From Phosphitispora fastidiosa (lineage in GTDB: Bacteria > Bacillota > Thermincolia > Thermincolales > UBA2595): a DNA stretch of 64,000 bases. Positions 30,403 through 32,916 of this stretch are shown one piece after another. Within the stretch, counting starts at the first letter, position 1, and each line of letters starts with the position of its first letter. The stretch lies in contig NZ_JAHHUL010000004.1 of NCBI RefSeq assembly GCF_019008365.1, forward strand, positions 186,001 through 250,000, written 5' to 3'. Below the pieces are notes generated by a model. The model made no database searches. It saw only the letters and a list, made by a program, of their open reading frames with translations, and was not told the origin of the DNA. Made by a program: the position numbers and the translations under genes.

Positions 30403-31689
30403 CTACTTCTCGGCAACTGATGCGGCCTCCAGAAAAGCTCTATACTCTTCTGTCGGCTTACCGCTCCGTAACAACACAAAGGCTTCTACAAGTTCGGGGT
30501 CAAAGTGTGTCCCCGAGCAGTTCCTTACCTCCTCCAGAGCCTCTTCCGGTGTCATTTTGCTACGGTAAGACCTATCGGAAGTCATGGCATCAAAGGAATC
30601 TGCCAAAGTAATAATCCTGGCGCCAAGTGGTATGACCTTTCCTTTAAGGCCGTCAGGATACCCGGAACCGTCATATTTCTCATGGTGATTCCTGACAAAA
30701 TGTGTAAAAGACCCGAGGTAATTGAGATCCTTTAAGATATGTTCACCAATAACCGGATGCAGCTTAATTTTGTCAAACTCGTTGTCCGCCAGTCTGCCCA
30801 CTCTCGTTAGGAGTTCATCACTGATACCGATTTTGCCGATATCATGCAGGAAAGCCATGTGCTGAATCGCTTCCACCTGGTCTTCCCGGAGCCTCAACTG
30901 GCGTGCCAACTCTACAGCATAATTGGCCACTCGGTCGGAATGACCCCTGGTATATCTGTCCTTGGCATCCAGGGCGCCGGCCAAAGCCTCCAGAGTATTT
31001 ATATAAACCTCCCTGGTGTCCATGTAAGATTTAAATATATAGCGGGCCAGGAGCAATGGAGCAAAAAACAGAATTACTCCCATAGGACCGGTGTAGGTAT
31101 AGGTTTTTGCCATCAACAGTCCTAATGGAGCCAACATTATTAGATTAGGTATTGCCCACCTCATATTTGTAAGCCATATTCCGTATAAGGAAATGTTAAA
31201 CTCCAGCGACATAATTAGTGAAAATGCCGTACCATTCACCGCAAGATAAGCGAATGTAGCACCTATATAAGGAAGCACGTTTTCTAAACTGATATTATAA
31301 CGGGAACCTCCCAAATATTGATAGACTAAACCGGCAGTTCCCGTAGCCAAGACAAATTGTGCACAATTAAATGCCAGTCTATGAATTTTACTTTTCGAAA
31401 TAATTTCGCTGGCAATATTGGCAGCTAACATGACAAAAGCGGAAATAGTTGGTCCAAAAAGTACAATACTGGCAAACGCCACTGCCTCTGTAACCGTAAC
31501 CCTGCCTCCCCGCGGCAGCGATACAGGCATTGAATCAGCAAAAATCGCCAAAACTGAAAAAAACAGGAATTCTTTAATCATTTCGCTATTAATTTGAAAA
31601 GAAGGAATTAATAGAAATAGTAAAACTATTGCAGATGTTACAGTAACAATAATATATATTTTAACTATCGCGGGAGGGGAACCGTTCAA
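30403..31689 (-). CDS. Membrane-bound HD-GYP phosphodiesterase (copy 2)
   Basis: 428 residues: N-terminal membrane domain (about 1-200) and C-terminal HD-GYP (FLHDIGKIGISDELL, NHHEKYDGSGYPDGLKGK, TLADSFDAMTSDRSY). The TTG start at 31689 has GGTGGG 6 nt before it. The gene begins directly after the T-run that ends the structured RNA/peptide unit, so read-through at that point would decide its expression. Confidence 0.92.
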   Translation of the reverse strand: MNGSPPAIVKIYIIVTVTSAIVLLFLLIPSFQINSEMIKEFLFFSVLAIFADSMPVSLPRGGRVTVTEAVAFASIVLFGPTISAFVMLAANIASEIISKSKIHRLAFNCAQFVLATGTAGLVYQYLGGSRYNISLENVLPYIGATFAYLAVNGTAFSLIMSLEFNISLYGIWLTNMRWAIPNLIMLAPLGLLMAKTYTYTGPMGVILFFAPLLLARYIFKSYMDTREVYINTLEALAGALDAKDRYTRGHSDRVANYAVELARQLRLREDQVEAIQHMAFLHDIGKIGISDELLTRVGRLADNEFDKIKLHPVIGEHILKDLNYLGSFTHFVRNHHEKYDGSGYPDGLKGKVIPLGARIITLADSFDAMTSDRSYRSKMTPEEALEEVRNCSGTHFDPELVEAFVLLRSGKPTEEYRAFLEAASVAEK

Positions 31690-31706
31690 TGTAAACCCAC
31701 CTTTTT

Positions 31707-32002
31707 AAAAAAAACGGACCGACAGTGCATTACTCTGTAGCTTAGTGGCTTAAATACTTGTATTAGTACTTGAAACCTGCACCACCTGCTAAAACTAAAG
31801 TAACAATAGCCATAGCGATCTTAACCAAAGTTGCTTTCATGTAAAGTAACCCCCCGTTCCGTCTCTGACTCAACCGGTAACCGCTATGTACCAGCCGGTA
31901 TCTGGACTTCCGCTCGGGTGGTTCCGCTCGTATGTTGCATTTTTTTCTGGTCATACTTTACCGAAAAACAATTTAAAACAAAGATCTGGGCTCTGTCGGT
32001 CC
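31707..32002 (-). ncRNA. Candidate structured RNA enclosing a peptide gene
   Basis: In the minus-strand RNA, GGACCGACAG (31993-32002) is exactly complementary to CTGTCGGTCC (31716-31725), which is followed by eight Us. Inside, AACCACCCG (31915-31923) pairs at 8 of 9 positions with CGGGGGGTT (31848-31856), which holds the ribosome binding site of the peptide gene. A hairpin CTGGTA/TACCGG (31889-31894, 31874-31879) lies between. Part of this (UAGCGGUUACCGG) resembles the 3' half of c-di-GMP-I riboswitches, but the 5' GACGCAAAGCC signature is missing. Class unknown. Confidence 0.5.
31763..31840 (-). CDS. 25-residue hydrophobic peptide
   Basis: MKATLVKIAMAIVTLVLAGG, then AGFKY. There is a short basic start, one hydrophobic segment and a short polar tail. 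GGGGGG lies 9 nt upstream of ATG 31840. An in-frame extension upstream would read through the structured leader and has no good start. It could be a signal peptide-like pheromone precursor, a small membrane regulator of the adjacent HD-GYP protein, or a type I toxin; the sequence does not decide. Confidence 0.6.
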   Translation of the reverse strand: MKATLVKIAMAIVTLVLAGGAGFKY

Positions 32003-32028
32003 TTTAAAATAACATAACTAATTGGGTA

Positions 32029-32685
32029 TCAATCATTAAGCAGCAGCGCCATCCGCCTGTTAATAGCGGCGAGAGTTGCTTTGACAGCTGCTTCCCTCTC
32101 GTCATGATTAAGAAATGCTGAGCCAATCAACCTCTCTTCTCCTACATTTGTTATCAGGGAAATCGAAACTGCAACAGCATCTCTTCCGGCAAGCACAAAA
32201 CGCGTAATATCCTCTGTAACCATATTGCAGGTTCCCTTCATATAACTCTCTATAGCCAATACAGTTGCCTGTGCGATAACTCTGAGCTTATTATTTGCCG
32301 TACTTGGACCGGATGCAATGCCACCATACATTTCGCCGCCGATCTCAAGATCAACCTTGGCCTCAGTCTTCCTGCCCCCCGAACTAACGGTTACAGCGAC
32401 CAGTTTAGGCCTTACTTCCTGCATTGGACCAGGGCCTTCATCATCCTGCATCTGAGCAACACTCACTTTTTTATGGTCAATGCTAATCCCAAACTGAGCC
32501 ATGAAAGCCGATTCAATATCCCGCACTATCTGTTTTGGGCCCCGGCTGGACCCAGAGAGTACATGTATTTCGGCAATTTCACCGGCCTCATCAGTTACAA
32601 TTCGCGCGGAAATGACGTCTTTTATCTGCCTGATAATGTCCTCATAATCAGTAAGCTTACCTTCGACGTACCTGTCTGATGCCAT
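32029..32685 (-). CDS. Conserved hypothetical protein with two alpha/beta domains
   Basis: 218 residues. The N-terminal part (about 1-85) contains RIVTDEAGEIAEIHVLS and IVRDIESAFMAQFGISI, like a small sensor or KH-type alpha/beta fold. The C-terminal half (about 95-218) repeats a beta-alpha pattern (KLVAVTVSS…KVDLEIGG…ATVLAIESY). ATG 32685 has GCGGGGG upstream; an earlier ATG (32727) lacks a site. Not named; located between hpf and the HD-GYP genes. Confidence 0.6.
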   Translation of the reverse strand: MASDRYVEGKLTDYEDIIRQIKDVISARIVTDEAGEIAEIHVLSGSSRGPKQIVRDIESAFMAQFGISIDHKKVSVAQMQDDEGPGPMQEVRPKLVAVTVSSGGRKTEAKVDLEIGGEMYGGIASGPSTANNKLRVIAQATVLAIESYMKGTCNMVTEDITRFVLAGRDAVAVSISLITNVGEERLIGSAFLNHDEREAAVKATLAAINRRMALLLND

Positions 32686-32916
32686 AAAAACCCCCGCGTT
32701 TCTTTCTAAATTTTTTATAACTGCCATTTAGTACCAAGTTCTGAAAATTATATTTCTATTTTCTACTTTTAAGCAGTATTTCCTTCTTTTTCTTAGACAA
32801 AATAATATAAAATTTTTCCGAAATTCTGTTAATTAATATATTTTTGCCAAATTTACCCCACATCTTAGTGATTCAAGAGTTCTTGGCAGCTCTCTTTTCG
32901 ATTTCTGACAATATTA

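Follow-up and report, generated by a model that had tools for sequence, protein, structure and literature searches.

Here we describe a structured RNA of Phosphitispora fastidiosa that is a member of a large RNA family without earlier description in Rfam or the open literature, folded around a micro-peptide gene and followed by one type of c-di-GMP enzyme, a MASE9 membrane sensor joined to an HD-GYP domain. This adds a structured RNA family and a micro-peptide family, both previously undescribed, with strong comparative support and a wide distribution, and ties both of them to a single c-di-GMP enzyme class. The role of the MASE9 membrane domain, as well as that of a micro-peptide in second-messenger signalling, becomes directly testable.

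The folded unit and its closing stem

In the window, by which we mean the whole 64,000-nucleotide stretch of DNA analysed, the unit (31707-32002, on the minus strand like every feature described in this section) fills the gap between gene X (32029-32727, 232 aa) and the MASE9/HD-GYP gene (30403-31689, TTG start; Pfam HD_5 at 3.5e-37 and MASE9 at 6.9e-6). A preliminary description of this DNA had noticed two ten-base arms in exact complement, and on the minus strand this is true of the closing stem, P1, whose 5' arm GGACCGACAG (31993-32002) is the exact complement of its 3' arm CUGUCGGUCC (31725-31716), with 267 nt separating the two. Eight Us (31707-31714) follow after one intervening G, with no local terminator hairpin, again as described. 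P1 encloses the micro-peptide gene (31763-31840; 25 codons plus stop, MKATLVKIAMAIVTLVLAGGAGFKY) and two copies of a GAGCGGA motif, the first (31923-31929) conserved in alignments and the second (31909-31915) of a GAGCGG type kept in most homologues.

The window unit folds at -88.3 kcal/mol, compared with -74.3 kcal/mol for dinucleotide shuffles (z = -2.9), and P1 appears in the MFE structure of 74 of 74 homologous units tested (mean z = -4.1). P1, like the peptide and the neighbouring genes, lies outside all covariance models used in the searches. Its arms pair in 40 of 40 loci (own mean 34.6, minimum 26; shuffled arms 17.7 +- 3.1), the best-scoring helix being weak or not the conserved arm in G009 and a few other loci. 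Across 51 distinct registered arms, 85.5% of cells are paired versus 70.6 +- 1.4% with 3' arms reassigned at random, and 169 cells are doubly changed versus 68 +- 12 under the same reassignment. The arm sequence differs by clade (GGACCGACAG, UUGAAGCCGGCAG, UUGACCGGCGGUAU, GGGGGCCCCGG); P1 forms in nearly all homologues, from different sequences and with strong covariation. The hairpin P5 (31871-31897), with a conserved UAGCGG in its loop (31886-31881), also covaries cleanly: it is 99.1% paired, with 48 doubly changed cells in 38 sequences, double changes in five of its six pairs, and a score of 0.666 versus 0.227 when shuffled. The UAGCGG...UUACCGG hairpin singled out earlier is likewise present in the unit. 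Since a DNA search found the unit kept in 7 of the 9 genomes of the window's family, P1 recurs in the MFE structure of every homologue tested, and P1 and P5 both covary, the unit goes beyond chance; the pairings kept in related genomes and the covariation of P1 bear out the original reading of a structured RNA closed by a long-range stem, and show this stem to be conserved.

Further pairings involve the peptide's ribosome binding site (RBS). As first reported, the RBS segment CGGGGGGUU (31856-31848), which forms the 3' arm of P4, pairs at eight of nine positions with the upstream segment AACCACCCG (31923-31915). Over 90 loci, P4 reaches a mean score of 15.5, against 13.4 for swapped and 13.2 for shuffled arms, so that a paired RBS holds in aggregate and not in every clade; RBS hiding by P4 is common, not universal, as the Syntrophomonadaceae-labelled clade has a weak P4 or none at all. 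Different clades use unrelated sequences for this pairing: close to the AGCGG motifs lie segments that pair with the stretch from RBS to AUG, as in L140 (CGGCUUUAGC/GCUGAAGCUG), L151 (CGAAUAUAGC/GCUAUAUUCG) and L033 (GGAAAACCC/GGGUUUUCC). Hiding of the RBS by P3 as well, in the window's family, is supported but not general: GUAAAG (31956-31961) pairs with CUUUAC (31841-31846), immediately 5' of the AUG, and this helix is kept in seven aligned family loci, mostly invariant, with one mismatch in G004. Two putative helices that extend into the ORF look plausible both in the fold and among relatives. P2 (GAUCUU, 31981-31986, with AAGAUC, 31822-31817, inside the ORF) is part of the MFE structure of the window unit, and similar pairs can be seen by eye in relatives, in most of which the shuffle test is not significant; P6 (31729-31804), joining GUUACUUU (31804-31797, within the ORF) to AGAGUAAU (31736-31729), is possible in relatives and singly significant in G003 only. 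The number and order of core motifs differ among clades. Unpaired AGCGG elements are strongly conserved inside the covarying fold, a hint of some ligand or protein.

Past P1, a U-rich tail is present in 37 of 75 homologues, those of the window and its family included. The P1-dependent terminator proposed in the preliminary description is therefore not supported as a general mechanism, and P1 plus U8 as a universal terminator is contradicted by clades without a U-tract. The 3' arm of P1 starts a median of 12 nt past the peptide stop and the HD-GYP start lies typically about 20-25 nt past P1; in the window, the gap from stop to P1 is at least 34 nt, longer than in most homologues. Such a placing of P1 is well suited to linking the peptide's translation with HD-GYP expression, which in the U-tract clades could include an attenuator.

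Distribution and the partner gene

Covariance model R1, a 123-nt core without P1, found the unit in 7 of 7 order members that passed a quality filter (at least 90% complete, at most 5% contaminated). From the identical coordinates and score of the match in G007 and of L026, a Thermincola MAG contig, we infer that a Thermincola MAG belongs to the window's family. Scanning 85,000 species genomes with a pattern brought up units in Syntrophomonadaceae, in Thermincola, in other Bacillota MAGs and on a single Gemmatimonadetes MAG contig; six pattern matches (L025, L029, L035, L037, L038, L040), without peptide or neighbours, were false positives. The wider model R3 gave matches in 52 of 398 sampled Bacillota genomes, a count that includes two false matches (G090, which is L116, and G359, which is L117), with one copy each and from many families; the weak model matches L116, L117 and L123, which have neither peptide nor neighbours, were dropped. 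Altogether this amounts to about 75 homologues, one per genome, plus one Gemmatimonadetes-labelled contig. The covariance-model E-values are rough, and the family claim is based on features outside the models. Indeed, the order X, RNA, peptide, HD-GYP is found in 40 of 40 distinct loci and nearly all further loci agree, an upstream or downstream gene being unreadable by script or cut at the contig end in a few. On the Gemmatimonadetes-labelled contig (L022, 800-898, minus strand), which has an X-RNA-peptide-membrane gene order, P1 (GGGGGCCCCGG) is unusual and the peptide has diverged; this cassette may reflect transfer or mis-binning.

Of the 398 sampled Bacillota genomes, 163 have gene X, in many cases immediately ahead of secA. 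At the X loci that R3 did not match, the peptide is present in 19 of 19 cases with HD-GYP as the next gene and in 0 of 18 with secA or other genes in that place, a count that was not blind, the peptides of L148 and L155 having been found on second reading only. A scan from the MASE9 side, on a set that overlaps the earlier locus sets, placed a peptide-like ORF upstream of 23 of 24 readable MASE9/HD-GYP genes (weak in L179 and L185) and of 0 of 5 MASE9 genes without the HD-GYP motif. It is thus the MASE9/HD-GYP enzyme that the peptide accompanies and not X, which was rejected as a partner given its presence in so many genomes and the absence of the peptide where HD-GYP is missing. The link to a c-di-GMP phosphodiesterase-type gene that had been drawn from the window alone thus extends to the homologues, in which the MASE9/HD-GYP gene lies downstream of the unit. 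Gene X itself has no Pfam or NCBIfam entry and encodes a two-domain protein for which structure search gave mixed, weak matches (LeuA regulatory domain, dsRBDs, EscJ/FliF). At L164 (G004 C48:150000-153800), two tandem copies of it precede the RNA unit.

The micro-peptide, the enzyme and a proposed circuit

The peptide gene, so far a prediction from one sequence, proves genuine and conserved in relatives, with homologues in 76 loci that range from 19 to 29 residues (25 in the window) and share the consensus M(K/A)xK(L/V/I)x(K/R)xLxA(L/I)xxL(V/I)LAG(G/A)Ax(F/Y/W)(K/R)W. Single-base codon differences comprise 692 synonymous and 227 nonsynonymous cases (75% synonymous versus 30% expected), and changes at codon positions 1, 2 and 3 number 499, 180 and 1103, a pattern that indicates purifying selection at the protein level. 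No Pfam or NCBIfam family was found for the peptide. Columns 15, 18, 22 and 25 of its alignment are almost always small residues, which would be typical of packed transmembrane helices. The peptides of L092, L094, L104, L112 and L099 are short and poorly hydrophobic, with mainly the C-terminal GG..(F/Y/W).W left, and such versions would suit a function of the nascent chain or of the C-terminus no less than a membrane helix.

The signature residues of HD and HD-GYP do not vary across the alignment of the enzyme, and 13 of 14 members carry MASE9. Its AlphaFold model has a mean pLDDT of 86.5; in Foldseek searches the catalytic part matches HD-GYP structures and the membrane part matches the ECF S-components RibU, FolT, BioY and ThiT (TM by target length about 0.6-0.7; E 0.004 to 0.4), and the membrane domain is accordingly modelled as an ECF S-component-like fold. 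S-components dock to their partners via small-residue helix faces, which makes a small transmembrane partner plausible here. The peptide is, as a small subunit should be, both conserved at the protein level and co-inherited with its partner gene.

The occurrence of an RNA-plus-peptide cassette before one MASE9/HD-GYP type across many Firmicutes families suggests that the peptide is probably a partner or regulator of the enzyme. We give about even chances to an RNA-gated making of a membrane micro-peptide of ~25 residues that works with the MASE9/HD-GYP receptor as a small transmembrane partner or regulator. The unit would be a folded part of a polycistronic mRNA that controls production of the peptide, which would be co-expressed with the downstream MASE9/HD-GYP protein. 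P4, and in the window's family P3, would hide the peptide RBS until some trigger at the conserved AGCGG elements opened the structure and turned peptide translation on; a ribosome at the peptide stop, so close to the 3' arm of P1, could then open P1 and couple peptide synthesis to HD-GYP expression. The small-residue face of the peptide may pack on the S-component-like domain and so tune c-di-GMP breakdown. A stronger version, in which the RNA senses a cellular signal and gates a transmembrane micro-peptide that is an obligate regulatory subunit of the S-component-like HD-GYP receptor, seems to us rather unlikely; if true, an RNA-peptide-enzyme circuit would control c-di-GMP across Bacillota, perhaps beyond.

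Known families and rival explanations

Rfam gave no match at gathering score in the whole window, nothing above noise in the unit (a bglG-cis-reg match at E 0.71 being noise), and nothing in 20 homologous loci except two tRNAs. The likeness to c-di-GMP-I aptamers suggested earlier found no support, as the c-di-GMP-I model had no match in 31650-32060 even at E up to 10. The c-di-GMP-I riboswitch (GEMM-I) also has a c-di-GMP gene as neighbour, and one hairpin of the unit loosely recalls its 3' half; however, the fold here is another, encloses an ORF and has no covariance-model match. A T-box-like GGGUGGUUCCGC on the opposite strand was not conserved. In the open-access literature searched, we found no paper on MASE9, on the RNA or on the peptide, and the main text of three structured-RNA surveys (PMC11109978, PMC8632094, PMC6429828) is without HD-GYP or secA.

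A conserved ORF with signs of coding selection, putatively translated, directly before the HD-GYP gene is what a leader-peptide attenuator would present, and although we doubt this explanation it is, together with a riboswitch, one of the two main rivals. A signal would make the nascent peptide stall or slow the ribosome near the stop, masking the 3' arm of P1 so that HD-GYP is expressed; otherwise P1 with the U-tract would terminate, or P1 would hinder the HD-GYP RBS. The spacing of P1 from the peptide stop and the HD-GYP start would agree with this, as would the narrow range of peptide lengths, the conserved C-terminal LAGGA.(F/Y/W)(K/R)W and the U8 of the window. However, the U-rich tail occurs in only about half of the homologues, no conserved antiterminator pairing was found (by eye, alternative pairings are possible in single clades), the residues past the W are free to vary, conservation covers the entire hydrophobic pattern and not the C-terminus alone, and the stop-to-P1 gap of the window exceeds most. 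Unpaired nucleotides under strong conservation within a covarying fold, a P4 stem that pairs with the RBS and a second-messenger enzyme next door would also suit a riboswitch, with the AGCGG elements and the P5 loop as the pocket and binding of some ligand altering P4 or P1. We consider this improbable, given a lack of likeness to c-di-GMP-I or another Rfam family, the differing number and order of motifs among clades, and an enclosed ORF under protein-level selection, which a plain riboswitch would not need. The preliminary description had proposed either a variant riboswitch or a peptide-controlled switch; both are conceivable, but the co-inheritance data lead us to read the peptide first of all as a companion product of the HD-GYP protein.

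The pattern MxK..(K/R)..LxxLVLAGGA-x(F/Y/W)(K/R)W, with a membrane sensor encoded downstream, might instead describe a precursor resembling a signal peptide, with K/R in its n-region, an h-region and an AGGA cleavage site, that frees a short aromatic-basic peptide to be sensed by the MASE9/HD-GYP receptor. Charged core residues would make some homologues poor signal peptides, and the tail motif is not alike in every homologue, so we put little weight on such a secreted signal. As for a type I toxin-like module, in which 5'-3' end pairing and RBS sequestration silence the mRNA of a hydrophobic toxin, the small hydrophobic peptide, the long-range end pairing and the paired RBS would all be in keeping with it; nonetheless, the single copy at a fixed operon position in the genomes examined, the strict HD-GYP link and the lack of any promoter-like site in the unit on its other strand (none was found on the plus strand over 31600-32002) make it very improbable.

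The RNA-gated membrane peptide that we prefer shares features with several known systems. The uORF and leader-peptide elements, such as tnaC and the ilvB uORF motif, a leader-peptide-type element (PMC10272879), share with the unit a structured leader that lies right ahead of the main gene and contains a small conserved ORF provided with an RBS. The unit differs in that a long-range stem closes round the entire ORF and in that its peptide is conserved across many families; conserved terminator and antiterminator structures were not found in it. Type I toxin mRNAs of the hok/AapA type combine 5'/3' end pairing, a sequestered RBS and a small hydrophobic product, all of which have counterparts here, whereas our unit is a single-copy operon element bound to an HD-GYP gene, with no antisense RNA seen. 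KdpF, CydX and CbiN are small membrane subunits encoded beside the membrane protein that they serve, much as the predicted transmembrane peptide is coded next to a membrane protein; none of them is known to be embedded in a conserved RNA fold, and the predicted partner here is a c-di-GMP phosphodiesterase-type receptor.

The two adjoining HD-GYP genes that had been noted are both there, but only the first is tied to the unit. The second (30358-29078, minus strand), also a membrane HD-GYP gene, has no MASE9 match and no peptide unit of its own, and is followed on its 3' side by DUF5317 and then secA. Elsewhere in the window, a strong terminator-like hairpin (33691-33667, minus strand; ACCCCAGGGA...UCCCUGGGGU, then U4) lies between a cold-shock gene and hpf.
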